Source: Thermostichus vulcanus str. 'Rupite'
GTDB taxonomy: Bacteria; Cyanobacteriota; Cyanobacteriia; Thermostichales; Thermostichaceae
Direction: 5' to 3'
Assembly (NCBI RefSeq): GCF_022848905.1
Contig: NZ_JAFIRA010000001.1
Span: forward strand, 186,001 to 250,000
DNA: 64,000 nucleotides
Positions 43,777-50,612 of this stretch are shown piece after piece. The notes beneath the pieces were generated by a model that saw only the letters and a program-made list of their open reading frames with translations, was not told the origin of the DNA and ran no database searches. Positions within the stretch are counted from its first letter, which is position 1. Each line of letters begins with the position of its first letter. A program made the translations under genes and the position numbers.

Positions 43777-45462
43777 TCAAGGGGTAGGGGCCAAATCCCG
43801 ATACCGATAATGCCGGGGCAAGCGAACCCGAAAGGTGGTTCCTGCTCCCACTTGGCTACTCACCTCGATATGGCCCGCCAACAAATCGATCAGCCGCTTG
43901 ATGATGGCTAAGCCTAGCCCTGTTCCCGGAATCGTGCTGACATTGCTACCCCGATGAAAAGGGTCGAACAGGTAAGGTTGATCCTCCAATGGGATCCCAA
44001 TGCCCTGATCTTCCACTTCAAAAACAAACCATTCCTGCTGACACAAGAGACGAAATTGGATCACCTGTTCTGGGTTGGAATACTTAATGGCGTTGGAGAG
44101 CATGTTTAGCAGAATCGAGCGCAGCATGGAGGGATCTAAGTAAGCATTTTGCTGTGGGCAATCGGACTGGAATTGGATGTTTGCAGCCGTGTGGGTGAGT
44201 TGTAGCTCACGAATTACATCTTGACAACACTGAACCAGCTCAATTTGAGCTGGCTGGGGGGAGAGTTTACGAGCATCAGTGCGACCGATCAACAACACGT
44301 CATCCAGCATTTGCGTCATGTGTTGAATATCCGCTTGGATCCCTTGCACATAGCGATTTTGGTCAGCCTCGGAGAGTTGATGTCGATAGCGTTCTAGGCA
44401 GGTGACGGCGAAGAGAATGGTATTGAGAGGAGTGCGAAATTCATGACACACCATTGAGACAAACCGCGATTTCATCTCGTTCAACTCTTGTAGTTGTTGA
44501 TTGGCCCGTTGTAGTTCAGCTGTTCTTTCCTGCACTTTTCGTTCTAGATCTTCGTGGGCTTGTTTCAAGGCTGCTTCTGCCCATTTGCGTTCCGTGATGT
44601 CTCGAAAGGTGACCACTGCTCCCACCAAGCGGCCTTGCACATCTCGCATCGGAGTACTGGTGTACTCAACCGGAAAAGAACTGCCATCTTTGCGCCAAAA
44701 CACTTCATCCACCACATGATGTACCTGTCCATCGCGGAAGGCAGCATAGATTGGGCACTCAGTGCGAGGATAGGGGGTACGGTCGGGATGGCTGTGGTGC
44801 AACAGATCGTGCATAGAGCGTCCGATCAATTCTGCGGTTGACCAGCCGATCATGCGGGCGGCGGCAGGGTTGGCAAAGGTGACCATGCCATTGGCATCGA
44901 GGCCGTAGATTCCTTCCCCGGCTGAGTTGAGGATCAGTTCATTTTGTTGCCGCAGCTGATTAAGGGTTGCATCAGTCTGGCTAGGTGCAAGGGATCCCTC
45001 AACTCTCATGCATTGCCACAGATGAGGCGTGGGATCCCATAATCCCCAACCTTGCGGGCGTGGAATCGCGATCCAAAGCGGGGGCACTGGATGGTCATGC
45101 GGACGAGCTAAGAGCGTAGCTAGGGCTTCCTCCACCGTCAGGGATCCCTGTAAAACCTCCGCGGGCAGCCAGTTCTCTTGCATGTCTTCTAGGCTGAGTG
45201 TGCTCAAGGGATCCCATCGGGCCGGATCCAGCCGCCAGTCAGCCACCTGTGCACGGGTGAGGATCCCCCGCAGAGATAGAGGATCGAACTCATGCTCAGC
45301 ACCGACAATCACCGCCCCAACAGTACCTGGCGTGTGGATCAAGGCATCGGCCAACTGCGCTAGGCTCCATTCTGGGTGGGCAACCAGAGCTGGTTGGGCC
45401 ATTGGTGCTAGGTGGGAGCAAGACTTCCATAGGATCTCATTCGAAGAAAGTCGTGTGGACAT
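43777..45462 (-). CDS. PAS-domain sensor histidine kinase
   Basis: A 561-residue cytoplasmic kinase. The N-terminal 160 residues look like a degenerate CBS-pair module (LAQLADALIHTPGTVGAVIV, SLRGILTRAQVADWRL). Next come a PAS domain (NELILNSAGEGIYGLDANGM, then FRDITERKWAEAA), a coiled coil, HisKA with the phospho-His in MVCHEFRTPLNTIL, and HATPase_c (LLNMLSNAIKYS, DQGIGIPLED, GTGLGLAIIKRL). There are no membrane helices. Start at ATG 45462; an upstream TTG is ignored. It is divergent, with a 111-nt gap, from the AraC-type response regulator, its probable partner. The signal is unknown. Confidence 0.9.
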   Translation of the reverse strand: MSTRLSSNEILWKSCSHLAPMAQPALVAHPEWSLAQLADALIHTPGTVGAVIVGAEHEFDPLSLRGILTRAQVADWRLDPARWDPLSTLSLEDMQENWLPAEVLQGSLTVEEALATLLARPHDHPVPPLWIAIPRPQGWGLWDPTPHLWQCMRVEGSLAPSQTDATLNQLRQQNELILNSAGEGIYGLDANGMVTFANPAAARMIGWSTAELIGRSMHDLLHHSHPDRTPYPRTECPIYAAFRDGQVHHVVDEVFWRKDGSSFPVEYTSTPMRDVQGRLVGAVVTFRDITERKWAEAALKQAHEDLERKVQERTAELQRANQQLQELNEMKSRFVSMVCHEFRTPLNTILFAVTCLERYRHQLSEADQNRYVQGIQADIQHMTQMLDDVLLIGRTDARKLSPQPAQIELVQCCQDVIRELQLTHTAANIQFQSDCPQQNAYLDPSMLRSILLNMLSNAIKYSNPEQVIQFRLLCQQEWFVFEVEDQGIGIPLEDQPYLFDPFHRGSNVSTIPGTGLGLAIIKRLIDLLAGHIEVSSQVGAGTTFRVRLPRHYRYRDLAPTP

Positions 45463-45573
45463 AACCCAGTCAGTCAAACCCTTAGGATGCTTCTCACTTA
45501 ACGGTATCTCCCGATACTACAAGAGTTCGTAAGACTGGCTACCAAGAGACCCATATCCTTAACCATCGCGACT

Positions 45574-46365
45574 GTGTCCAGAGTATTGGTGATCGAAGAC
45601 GAGCCCCGTACCCGCCAGATCTTTCTGCATTGTTTACAGCTGGAGGGATTTGAGGTGTTCGGGGCAGAAAATGGCCGTCTGGGACTGGAGCAAGCCCGTA
45701 CCCATCGACCCGATCTGATTATTTGCGACATTATGATGCCGGAGTTAGATGGCTACCAAGTTCTGCAGACTTTGCAACAGGATCCTACAACAGCATGGAT
45801 CCCGGTTATCTTTCTGACGGCGAAAGTTGCTAGGCAGGATGTGCGGCAGGGGATGGTGTTGGGGGCTGATGATTATTTAACCAAGCCCTGCACCGTGGAT
45901 GAGTTTTTGACCACGATCAATGCCCGCTTGCGCAAACAGGCTTTTCTCCACCACAGGGCTTCGCTAACTTCAGCCATTAACACTGCCGATAGCCATTCCA
46001 CCGATTCCAAAAGAGACTTTCAGTATCCCACTCATCCTAAGCTAGCTGCCGTTTTTGAGTATATCGAGGCCCATTATGCCGAACCGATTGACTTGACGGA
46101 TGTTGCTCGTGCAGTCGGCTATTCACCGGCCTATTTGACCACCCTATTACGCAAACAAACTGGTCACAGTGTCAAAGATTGGATCACCGAACGACGCATG
46201 GCAGAAGCCAGGCGACTTTTACGACACAGCCAAGCCTCGATCAAGCACGTTGGACAAGCTGTGGGATATGTGGATCCCGCCTATTTTGCCCGCCATTTTC
46301 GACAAAGGCACGGGATCCCACCACTTCTTTGGCGAGAGCAACAGGGGAGGTTCTTCCAGGCTTGA
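45574..46365 (+). CDS. Response regulator with AraC-type DNA-binding domain
   Basis: A 263-residue regulator. Residues 1-120 are a receiver domain (VLVIEDEPRTRQI, LIICDIMMPELDGYQ with the phospho-Asp, VIFLTAK, YLTKPCTVDEF). Residues about 160-260 are an AraC/XylS double helix-turn-helix (IDLTDVARAVGYSPAYLTTL and IKHVGQAVGYVDPAYFARHF). Start is GTG 45574. The divergent kinase gene suggests a two-component pair. The next gene downstream on this strand is cynA, so control of the cyanate operon by this regulator is possible but unproven. Confidence 0.9.
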   Translation: MSRVLVIEDEPRTRQIFLHCLQLEGFEVFGAENGRLGLEQARTHRPDLIICDIMMPELDGYQVLQTLQQDPTTAWIPVIFLTAKVARQDVRQGMVLGADDYLTKPCTVDEFLTTINARLRKQAFLHHRASLTSAINTADSHSTDSKRDFQYPTHPKLAAVFEYIEAHYAEPIDLTDVARAVGYSPAYLTTLLRKQTGHSVKDWITERRMAEARRLLRHSQASIKHVGQAVGYVDPAYFARHFRQRHGIPPLLWREQQGRFFQA

Positions 46366-46722: not shown

Positions 46723-48276
46723 ATGCAATTCTCCATGGACAAACTCTTCACTCTTGATTTACAACGCTGCGCCTGTGGGGGCTTTCATGCTTCCCAAGAT
46801 CACAGTGAATTTTTCGCGTCCATGCCCCAAAATCCAGCGGACTTGGCAGATGACTTGATCAAAATGGGGGTTTACAAGCCACAGGTGTTGAAACTGGCGG
46901 ATCAGATCAGCCGCACTGAGATGCTAGAGATGCTGGTTTTGGAGCGGTTTAGTCGGCGCAACCCCGAAAAGGAGCCGATCTTGCGGGAGATGATCCGGCA
47001 GGCGGGGGGCCTCGATCAAGCGATGGTGGCGGCATTTGGCCCCCAAGCCTCTGAGTTTTTCACGGATACCCTACGGGCTGGCCCCTACTCGCGGCGGCGC
47101 TTTTTGACCCAGGTAATGGTGGCAGCTTCGGTAATCGGGTTGACGGCCACGCAAGGGCACCCGGAACTGTCTACTCAAGCTCAGGGATCCCTGGAAAAAA
47201 CGGATCTGCGAATTGGGTTTATCCCCATCACCTGTGCCACTCCGATCATCATGGCGGAACCCCTAAAGTTCTACGAGAAGCACGGGCTGAATGTGCAGGT
47301 GGTAAAAATGCCCAGTTGGGCTGCCGTGCGGGATTCGGCCATCGCTGGGGAACTGGATGCCTATCACATGCTCTCCCCGATGCCCATTTCCATCACATTA
47401 GGCCTGGGATCCACTGCTTTCCCCATTAAGCTGGCCAGCATCGAGAACATCAACGGCCAAGCCATTACTGTGGCCAACAAGTACAAAGACACCCTCAAAG
47501 GCCCTGCCGACTTCAAAGGCTTCACGATTGGGGTTCCTTTCCCCTACTCGATGCACAACCTCTTGATCCGCTACTACCTGGCCACGGGTGGTCTTAATCC
47601 CAATACCGATGTGCAGATCAACCCCGTGCCACCTCCGGATAGCGTGGCTCGTCTGACGGTGGGGGATATTGACGCCATGTTGATGCCGGATCCCTTTAAC
47701 CAGCGGGCGGTGTTTGAGGGGGTGGGCTTCCTTCATATGGTTAGCAAAGATCTGTGGCCGGGACACCCCTGCTGTGCGTTTGCGGCCAGCCAAAGCTGGA
47801 TCGATGCCAACCCCAACACCTTCCGCGCTGTGAACAAGGCGATCATTGATGGGGCCAACTACGCCAGCCAAGCAGAAAATCGAGCCGAGATCGCCAAAGC
47901 CATTTCCCCACGGGAGTTCCTCAATCAGCCGGAGGAAGTGGTTGCTGCTGTGCTGACGGGCCAGTTTGAGGATGGCTTGGGCAATACCTTCGACATCCCC
48001 GACCGCATTGATTTTGATCCCTACCCGTGGCAGAGCTTTGCCTACTGGATCACCAGCCAGTTGGTGCGCTGGGACTTTTTGCCTGAAGCCGATGCCGATT
48101 ACTCTCAGATTGGTCAGGACATCTTCTTGACGGATCTGGCCCGTGAGCTGGCCCAGGAACTGGGACAAACCCCACCGACAGAAACGCTGCGAACCGAGAC
48201 CCTGATGTTCGATACGTTCGATCCCAGCGATCCGGCTGCCTACATTCAGGCTCAGATCGAGCGGTTTGGGGTTTAG
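46723..48276 (+). CDS. cynA: Cyanate ABC transporter binding protein with unusual N-terminal extension
   Basis: An NrtA/CmpA-type binding protein of 517 residues. The binding domain starts LRIGFIPITCATPIIMAEPL and shows AYHMLSPMPISITLGLGS, IGVPFPYSMHNLLIRYYLA, PVPPPDSVARLTVGDIDAML and DPFNQRAVFEGVGFLH. Genes for a permease, an ATPase and cyanase follow, which makes cyanate the likely ligand. A twin-arginine motif (YSRRRFLTQVMVAASVIG) appears only after about 120 residues; ahead of it is a soluble segment with RCACGGFHASQDHSEFF. No plausible start codon lies just before the Tat motif, so the extension is really coding. ATG 46708, 46723 and 46735 are all possible starts. Confidence 0.82.
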   Translation: MQFSMDKLFTLDLQRCACGGFHASQDHSEFFASMPQNPADLADDLIKMGVYKPQVLKLADQISRTEMLEMLVLERFSRRNPEKEPILREMIRQAGGLDQAMVAAFGPQASEFFTDTLRAGPYSRRRFLTQVMVAASVIGLTATQGHPELSTQAQGSLEKTDLRIGFIPITCATPIIMAEPLKFYEKHGLNVQVVKMPSWAAVRDSAIAGELDAYHMLSPMPISITLGLGSTAFPIKLASIENINGQAITVANKYKDTLKGPADFKGFTIGVPFPYSMHNLLIRYYLATGGLNPNTDVQINPVPPPDSVARLTVGDIDAMLMPDPFNQRAVFEGVGFLHMVSKDLWPGHPCCAFAASQSWIDANPNTFRAVNKAIIDGANYASQAENRAEIAKAISPREFLNQPEEVVAAVLTGQFEDGLGNTFDIPDRIDFDPYPWQSFAYWITSQLVRWDFLPEADADYSQIGQDIFLTDLARELAQELGQTPPTETLRTETLMFDTFDPSDPAAYIQAQIERFGV

Positions 48277-48375: not shown

Positions 48376-49206
48376 ATGGCGTCTTCTTCCGTGTCGCCAG
48401 GGCGATGGATCCGTTCAATTTTGCCCGATACCAATCAGCAGGCATTGGCCTTGTTCGTGCTCTCGTTCCTCCTTATTTTGGGGGTGTGGGAAGCTGGAGC
48501 CCGCTGGGGTTTGTTTTCTCCGTTAATGCCCCCCGCCAGCAAGACCCTGGTGGCCATTTGGGAGTGGATTTCGGATCCCTTTTATGATTATGGCCCCAAC
48601 GACAAGGGGATCGGCTGGCATCTGCTGGTGAGTTTGCGGCGGGTGGCGATTGGTTTCACGATCGGCTCCTTGATTGCGATCCCGTTGGGGGTGCTGGTGG
48701 GCCTTTCAGAGGTAACCTCACGGGCGATTGACCCCTACATTCAACTGTTGAAGCCGGTCTCGCCCTTGGCCTGGCTGCCATTGGGTTTGGGGATCCTGAA
48801 AAGCTCGGAAAATACCGCCCTGTTTGTCATCGCCATTACCAGCATTTGGCCGACTCTGATCAACACCAAGTTTGGGGTCAGCAATGTGGATCAATCCTAT
48901 TTGAATGTGGCTCGTTCCCTGGGGGCTTCTCGGTGGCGCACCATATTCAAGGTAATTTTGCCTGCTGCTGCACCCAACATTGTGGCTGGTTTGCGCATCA
49001 GCATTGGGATTGCTTGGTTGGTGATTGTGGCTGCGGAGATTCTGGTGGGGGGAACCGGCCTTGGCTATTTTGTGTGGAATGAATGGAATAACCTGCAAAT
49101 CACCAGCATCATCACCGCAATTGTTGTTATTGGCATGGTGGGTTTGTTGCTGGATCGCTTATTTGGTTTGTTGCAGCAATGGGTCGCGTTTGGGTCCAGA
49201 TCATGA
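48376..49206 (+). CDS. cynB: Cyanate ABC transporter permease
   Basis: A 276-residue BPD_transp_1 permease with about six helices (ALFVLSFLLILGVWEAGARW, VAIGFTIGSLIAIPLGVLVG, ISIGIAWLVIVAAEILVGG) and the coupling loop NVARSLGASRWRTIFKVILP. It resembles NrtB but lacks the N-terminal extension seen at 21561. GGAGG stands 4 nt ahead of ATG 48376, a rather short spacing. It overlaps cynD by four bases (ATGA). Confidence 0.88.
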   Translation: MASSSVSPGRWIRSILPDTNQQALALFVLSFLLILGVWEAGARWGLFSPLMPPASKTLVAIWEWISDPFYDYGPNDKGIGWHLLVSLRRVAIGFTIGSLIAIPLGVLVGLSEVTSRAIDPYIQLLKPVSPLAWLPLGLGILKSSENTALFVIAITSIWPTLINTKFGVSNVDQSYLNVARSLGASRWRTIFKVILPAAAPNIVAGLRISIGIAWLVIVAAEILVGGTGLGYFVWNEWNNLQITSIITAIVVIGMVGLLLDRLFGLLQQWVAFGSRS

Positions 49207-50093
49207 TGGTTACCTCGACTGCTTATTCTTCGTCCTCTGGCTCTGTCGGCTCGGAGCGGATCCCGCAACTGCAACTACGCCAGGTCACCAAGATCTATTC
49301 CGGTCGGCGTGGCCTGATGGATCGAATCATTGGTCGGGCTTCGGTTGATTATGCGGCCCTCTCTCCCATTGATTTGGTGGTGGAGGCCAATACCTTTGTC
49401 TCGATCATCGGCCCCTCTGGCTGCGGTAAATCTACATTGCTAAATATCATCGCTGGGCTGTCGCAACCGTCTACTGGCCAGGTGCTGATCAACGGTGAGG
49501 AAGTTCACTCTCCCGGCCCAGATCGCGGCATTGTCTTTCAAAACTATGCCCTCATGCCCTGGATGACAGTGGAGGAAAATATCCGCTTTGCAGTGGAAAC
49601 GGTTCACCCCCAAATGCCCTTGGCTCAGCAGAAACAGGTGGTGCAATCGTTTGTCGACTTGGTGGGGTTGCGGGGGGCAGAGAAGAAACATCCTCATGAG
49701 CTGTCGGGTGGGATGAAACAGCGGGTGGGTATTGCTCGGGCACTGGCGATTGATCCACAAATTTTGCTGATGGATGAACCGTTTGGAGCCTTGGATGCCT
49801 TGACCCGTGGTTTTCTTCAGGATGAAATCGAGCGGATCTGGGAGTCACAGCGGAAAACCGTCATTTTGATCACCCACAGCATTGAGGAAGCCCTGTTGTT
49901 GTCGGATCGGATTGTGATGATGACCCGAGGGCCAGGAGCACGTATTGCTCAAATTTTGGATGTGCCATTTGCCCGTCCGCGTCACCGAGATAGTTTGGAT
50001 CAGCAGCCAGGCTATCACGAGCTGAAGGCAGCGATGGAACAGCATCTCTCCCAAGAAACCCGTGCCGTTGAGGAATCACGCATCCGGGTTTGA
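49203..50093 (+). CDS. cynD: Cyanate ABC transporter ATPase
   Basis: A 296-residue ABC ATPase with Walker A GPSGCGKST, Q-loop VFQNYALMPWM, signature LSGGMKQR, Walker [14 protein letters not shown] and switch VILITHSIEEALL. I take ATG 49203, which overlaps the cynB stop as ATGA, as the coupled start rather than the in-frame ATG 49179 inside cynB. An unusual insert before Walker A (RRGLMDRIIGRASVDYAALS) also occurs in some NrtD/CynD-like ATPases. cynS follows after 72 nt. Confidence 0.88.
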   Translation: MMVTSTAYSSSSGSVGSERIPQLQLRQVTKIYSGRRGLMDRIIGRASVDYAALSPIDLVVEANTFVSIIGPSGCGKSTLLNIIAGLSQPSTGQVLINGEEVHSPGPDRGIVFQNYALMPWMTVEENIRFAVETVHPQMPLAQQKQVVQSFVDLVGLRGAEKKHPHELSGGMKQRVGIARALAIDPQILLMDEPFGALDALTRGFLQDEIERIWESQRKTVILITHSIEEALLLSDRIVMMTRGPGARIAQILDVPFARPRHRDSLDQQPGYHELKAAMEQHLSQETRAVEESRIRV

Positions 50094-50165: not shown

Positions 50166-50612
50166 ATGAGCATAGCCATTCCCGAGATCACCGAAAAACT
50201 CTTGGCAGCAAAGGCCGAGAAAGGTCTAACATTCGCTGATTTAGAGCAGAAGATAGGGCGGGATGAAGTATGGATTGCAGCGGTTTTTTATCGCCAGGCC
50301 AGTGCTTCCCCAGAAGAGGCGAGTAAAATCACTGAAATTTTGGGGTTGGATGCTGCGGTGGCCAAACAATTAACCGAGTGTCCCCTGAAAGGCTTGGGGC
50401 CAGTGGTGCCGACGGATCCCTTGATTTACCGCTTTTATGAGATTATGCAGGTCTATGGTATGCCAATTAAAACGGTAATTCATGAGAAGTTTGGTGATGG
50501 CATCATGAGCGCGATTGACTTTACGTTGGACGTGGAAAAGGAAGAGGATCCCAAGGGGGATCGCGTCAAGGTGATCATGTCTGGCAAGTTCTTGCCCTAC
50601 AAGAAGTGGTAG
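50166..50612 (+). CDS. cynS: Cyanase (cyanate hydratase)
   Basis: A 148-residue enzyme that converts cyanate and bicarbonate to carbamate and CO2, giving ammonia. The N-terminal half is a helix-turn-helix-like bundle ([20 protein letters not shown]). The C-terminal half carries the catalytic residues R89 and E92 ([14 protein letters not shown]) and S115 ([14 protein letters not shown]), offset by seven from the E. coli numbering. The C-terminus GKFLPYKKW is standard. AGGAG precedes ATG 50166. The last operon gene, followed by a strong terminator. Confidence 0.97.

Follow-up and report, generated by a model that had tools for sequence, protein, structure and literature searches.

The cynA gene of Thermostichus vulcanus str. 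'Rupite' raises the question of what a long segment placed ahead of an internal Tat signal does, and of what becomes of it when the protein is exported. We studied it in a window of 64,000 nucleotides, i.e., the whole stretch of DNA that was analysed, to which the positions below refer unless a contig or locus is named. The open reading frame 46723-48276 (+ strand) encodes a CynA of 517 residues (MQFSMDKLFTLDLQRCACGGFHASQDHSEFF...AGPYSRRRFLTQ...). Its substrate-binding domain (47191-48276, +) belongs to the NMT1_2, NrtA/CmpA family (PF13379, E 3e-79), and the nearest PDB proteins are 2g29 (NrtA) and 2i48 (a bicarbonate transporter binding protein, CmpA-type). Because the next genes of the shared operon encode a nitrate-type permease (CynB, 48376-49206, +, TIGR01183 over cut-off), a nitrate-type ATPase (CynD, 49179-50093, +, TIGR01184 over cut-off), and a cyanase (CynS, 50166-50612, +, TIGR00673 over cut-off), CynA is a sound name, and the gene context points to a cyanate binder encoded in a cynABDS operon. 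The operon is kept in relatives, with CynB and CynD each present at 64 of 65 loci and CynS at 59 of 65. The binding domain also has three cysteines that are invariant in 38 aligned CynA proteins (residue 171, at 47233-47235, and residues 350 and 351, at 47770-47775), which sit in ITCATP and HPCCAF.

A preliminary description of this DNA had placed a segment of about 120 residues ahead of the Tat signal of CynA and regarded the motif YSRRRFLTQ as internal. Both points were borne out: about 123 residues precede the RR motif, whose arginines (R124-R125) are encoded at 47092-47097. We delimited an N-terminal leader domain at residues 1-121 (46723-47085, +), using the translation, alignments, dN/dS, and co-occurrence with CynA. 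A scan of genome contigs provided 67 loci, 65 of which are close relatives. When homologues were aligned, as the preliminary description had proposed, all close relatives had the extension, and in nearly all relatives it lies in an open frame upstream of the binding domain. It is alignable across 46 cyanobacterial sequences, well outside what chance would produce, and the spacing from the first Cys of its Cys motif to the RR is almost constant at about 108 residues (106-109 in all but a few of the cyanobacterial sequences). The invariant positions include C16, C18, P35, P38, D44, M48-G49, A94-G95-G96, A103, F105-G106, F112, and R124. For pairs of relatives whose synonymous change is not saturated, dN/dS averages 0.106 in residues 15-47 and 0.065 in residues 48-121; the signal region has 0.125 and the binding domain 0.10. 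The extension is under purifying selection comparable to that on the binding domain, and it is a genuine translated domain, so far unnamed.

These results bear on the position of the start codon. The candidates are ATG 46723, ATG 46735, and an upstream TTG, and the conserved part begins at about residue 15. The extension itself holds further in-frame ATG codons (residues 34, 48, and 101), from which one could argue that the true start lies just before the Tat motif and that the extension is an artefact of the gene model. We consider this extremely unlikely and rejected it: M101 is an ATG in just 9 of the 46 sequences, M48 is conserved but embedded in an equally conserved stretch, and purifying selection spans residues 15-121. 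Because the internal ATGs are either non-conserved or inside equally conserved sequence, the internal start near the Tat motif that the preliminary description had considered finds no support.

The leader begins with a cluster of Cys and His (RCACGGFHASQDHSEFF, residues 15-31), whose putative ligands are arranged as C16-x-C18-x3-H22-x4-H27 (46768-46803, +). The four-ligand pattern C-x(1-2)-C-x(1-4)-[H/C]-x(3-9)-[H/C] is matched by 59 of 62 sequences; the exceptions (L022, L079, and L118) have three ligands only. The usual spacing is C-x1-C-x3-H-x4-H or C-x2-C-x3-H-x4-H, and most sequences can be summarised as C-x(1-2)-C-x(2-3)-[H/C]-x(4-8)-[H/C], where His and Cys replace each other at the third and fourth ligands. 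The third ligand is a Cys in Cyanobium, Synechococcus, the small-genome members L107 and L109, and L043, and the fourth is a Cys in the Moraxella, Variovorax, and Bosea (L114) forms. Since metal sites show such exchanges of His and Cys at ligand positions, the cluster is probably a metal site, with zinc as the likely ligand-bound ion. The earlier suggestion of a possible metal site can thus be raised to a probable one, given the conservation of the ligands and their swaps. The CCHC zinc knuckle (C-x2-C-x4-H-x4-C) likewise packs four Cys/His ligands within about 13 residues, but the CynA members are mostly of the type C-x(1-2)-C-x3-H-x4-H and have no zf-CCHC match, which places them outside that class. 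Matches of the extension to SCAN, zf-ChsH2, and Fur_reg_FbpA were at noise level and were discarded.

Most of the remaining leader is predicted to be helical (46792-47079, +, as delimited from AlphaFold2 models and conservation), including a conserved AGGLDQA..AAFG segment. The AlphaFold2 model of the leader has seven helices (at about residues 24-33, 38-47, 53-61, 64-77, 83-93, 97-105, and 109-119) ahead of the signal helix, and the Cys motif forms a hairpin that is predicted weakly. Confidence is moderate for the leader with the signal (mean pLDDT 74, pTM 0.45). Averaged over blocks of 10 residues, it is about 69-86 when the domain is modelled alone and 60-80 for the full-length protein, in whose model the link region 134-152 falls below 50. 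The full-length model shows no confident packing of the leader on the binding domain, the inter-domain error not being part of the output. A Foldseek search of the PDB with the leader gave no Tat chaperone-like or other fold (best E 3, which is meaningless), and sequence searches of Pfam, NCBIfam, and the PDB gave no significant family over the extension. We found no description of it in the literature searched, whose coverage was partial, so that this absence is not proof of novelty.

The distribution of the leader follows that of CynA. Its profile (A1) matches 30 of 386 well-assembled cyanobacterial genomes, and the CynA binding domain, searched separately (E <= 1e-100), is found in 29 of the 386. 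All 29 genomes with a close CynA have the leader, and the two lists differ solely by one genome (G283). We rejected the idea that the domain is reused in other proteins: the profile search of the 386 genomes matched CynA-sized open reading frames only and no other intact one, bar the remnant in G283. This remnant (L112, contig 5, 77070-77394) is a leader broken by a frame change, no intact CynA was found with it, and it is probably what is left of a decaying cyn operon. Because cyanase is present in 103 of the 386 genomes vs 30 for the leader, the leader tracks the transporter and not the cyanase. Neither the leader nor CynA occurs in two relatives assigned to the same genus. Some genomes encode a second, more diverged CynA-like protein (L014, 8472-9550; G164, contig 5; and the upstream part of loci L020, L026, L034, and L035); the second copies of L014 and G164 also carry the leader. 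NrtA and CmpA have the binding domain and Tat export in common with CynA, but the three paralogues of this type that we read in the window's genome (L069, L070, and L074) have a normal Tat signal, in which the n-region is short and lacks Cys, and no Cys/His leader.

We also read CynA loci on plasmids of alpha-, beta-, and gammaproteobacteria, a survey that comprises a handful of loci, four of which have cynS in the operon (L115, L117, L118, and L120). Nine proteobacterial binding domains are 41-55% identical to that of the window. At their N-termini these proteins have CxCGxxH-type clusters, followed by a short helix-like segment and by RRxFL, and the stretch from the cluster to the RR (about 35-70 residues) is much shorter than in cyanobacteria. 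In a joint alignment of the cyanobacterial and proteobacterial forms the clusters coincide, as do the segments preceding the RR, and a conserved helix adjoins the RR in both. A profile-profile comparison of the two sets of leaders aligned the Tat region alone, and hence the case for homology rests on position and on the Cys motif in the joint alignment. On these grounds, common descent is likely. The simplest picture would be an old leader made of a Cys/His cluster and a helix, to which about 70 helical residues were added in cyanobacteria. Three proteobacterial CynA-like proteins (L079, L082, and L114) are encoded beside nitrilase, aldoxime dehydratase-like, and molybdopterin genes and may bind a different substrate; in L079 and L082, which lie beside nitrilase-type genes, the Cys/His cluster has decayed and is partly lost.

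The Tat signal (47086-47150, +) consists of YSRRRFLTQ and a hydrophobic region, i.e., an RR-x-F-L motif and then a hydrophobic stretch (SRRRFLTQVMVAASVIGL for the two together). Of 58 sequences, 57 have RR in this motif and one has RK, and the genome encodes TatC. The model TIGR01409 matches the signal above cut-off at the same internal position in the relatives L003 and L058; the CynA of the window gave no match to this model at E 0.01. With its RR at residue 124, CynA does not have the short n-region of a usual Tat signal. A lipobox follows the signal in about 54 of the 58 sequences examined (46 identified by a regular expression and eight MASC/MSSC cases that it missed, added by reading). 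Among these 58, the lipobox Cys is absent from L002, L028, L064, and the CynA of the window, which does not class as a Tat lipoprotein and has a possible signal peptidase I site near LTA/TQ. The proteobacterial forms have AxA-like sites after the Tat signal.

Where would this leave the leader? Tat signals bind with their twin arginines on the cytoplasmic side (PMC7317946), and in the TatBC-MdoD structure the signal helix starts at the outer edge of the complex and extends towards its interior (PMC13323110), a geometry from which we infer that there is room for an N-terminal domain. Tat can also work from an internal signal, as it does with the Rieske proteins of Streptomyces (PMC13186574; PMC5449189), and FecR is cited in PMC11533796 as a known protein with an internal Tat signal. 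Given this published topology and these cases, the leader could stay cytoplasmic and be cut away, and since a lipobox or an AxA-like site follows the Tat signal, it is probably left in the cytoplasm and removed together with the signal. FecR and the actinobacterial Rieske proteins resemble CynA in that the sequence before the RR precedes an N-in signal helix and the C-terminal part crosses by Tat; they are, however, membrane proteins, whereas the members of the CynA family, with their cleavage site or lipobox, should be released or lipid-anchored outside.

The preliminary description had left three fates for the extension: to be processed, to act as a cytoplasmic sensor, or to prevent export. 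The anatomy of the signal favours the first. If the extension blocked export, CynA would stay in the cytoplasm; the usual shortness of Tat n-regions is in line with this, but the RR, the h-region, and the lipobox are conserved behind the extension, Tat can use internal signals (PMC13186574; PMC5449189), and an ABC importer would have no use for a binding protein that stays in the cytoplasm. A block is thus very unlikely, and this part of the description was not supported, most relatives examined having a lipobox or AxA-like cleavage site after the Tat signal; the conserved domain with its probable metal site was.

The reading that we prefer, with a probability of roughly 0.42, is that the leader is a cytoplasmic (N-in) domain that controls or licenses Tat export in cis and is removed with the signal. 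CynA would be a Tat precursor with an unusually large leader, composed of a Cys/His knuckle (probably binding zinc), a helical domain, and the Tat signal. The signal would insert with its N-terminus facing the cytoplasm, so that the leader remains inside while the folded binding domain crosses. A cut after the signal, by signal peptidase II in most cyanobacteria and by signal peptidase I in this genome and in proteobacteria, would yield a mature binding protein without the leader. Before this, the leader, folded around its metal beside the RR motif, may hold or license the signal peptide, as the separate Tat chaperones of other substrates do. Export licensing is our best guess for its role; our analyses gave no connection of the leader with Tat or with the binding of signal peptides. 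A further reading, and a doubtful one, is an export gate built into CynA itself. The leader would then be a cis-acting Tat proofreading domain, cytoplasmic, dependent on metal or redox state, and covalently linked to the Tat signal; it would permit export only when the metal, redox, or cyanate state is right, and would afterwards be cut off.

The leader is selected as strongly as the binding domain, beyond the need of a throw-away peptide, and this could reflect a role after cleavage, in which a free or membrane-held cytoplasmic zinc-knuckle peptide binds CynB/CynD or another partner. A role before cleavage would also explain this selection, however, and our searches found no partner or fold match, which makes a function of the cleaved peptide rather improbable. 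The extension could also be compared with ESPR (PF13018, type 5 secretion), a conserved N-terminal addition to a cleavable signal peptide that is reported to modulate export and, in some substrates, to slow inner-membrane transport (PMC8151025). A similar brake on the export of CynA is conceivable on this precedent, if unlikely: ESPR has 25 residues and belongs to the Sec pathway, whereas the leader precedes a Tat signal, has about 120 residues, invariant Cys, and a predicted helical fold, and CynA does not match PF13018. The likeness to TIGR04519 (MoCo_extend_TAT), an extended or variant TAT region, is by name only: its matches are weak and non-significant (6 of 47 leader members, best E 0.02), and it is found in molybdopterin oxidoreductases, whereas CynA has no molybdopterin domain and falls outside that family. 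We know of no metal motif in the TIGR04519 extension.

Directly upstream of cynA are genes for a histidine kinase (43777-45477, -) and a response regulator whose DNA-binding region is of the AraC type (45574-46365, +). The pair occurs in 47-50 of the 65 cyanobacterial cyn loci, in an identical arrangement where the contig reaches, and also on a Pseudanabaena plasmid, where the kinase is annotated as a PAS sensor kinase. Its recurrence at cyn loci, including this plasmid, suggests a dedicated cyanate two-component regulator. The main rival to export control is that the leader is a FecR-like cytoplasmic sensor or signalling domain, of which an uncleaved fraction, or the membrane-held cleaved leader, would report the metal, redox, or cyanate state, for example to the transporter ATPase or the adjacent two-component system. 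Its cysteines might respond to metal or to redox conditions, or they might react with cyanate, as cysteine is known to do. The internal Tat signal of FecR, as cited in PMC11533796, offers a precedent. Against such a sensor, which we hold to be tentative and somewhat unlikely, the lipobox and AxA sites point to removal of the leader and not to its retention, the leader is kept without the kinase/regulator pair in Cyanobium and Synechococcus loci (L056-L060, L062, and L065) and in proteobacteria, and no sigma factor is linked.

Cyanate uptake matters for the nitrogen supply of bacteria, cyanobacteria among them. The binding protein of this uptake system appears to contain a module that has not been described, that is retained consistently, and that is probably never exported to the periplasm. 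At the least, signal-peptide predictions and recombinant constructs will go wrong for the CynA family where they presuppose a short signal at the N-terminus. If the module controls export, CynA would be a case of a Tat substrate that contains its own proofreading domain, and hence a compact system in which to study how a Tat signal is held and released.
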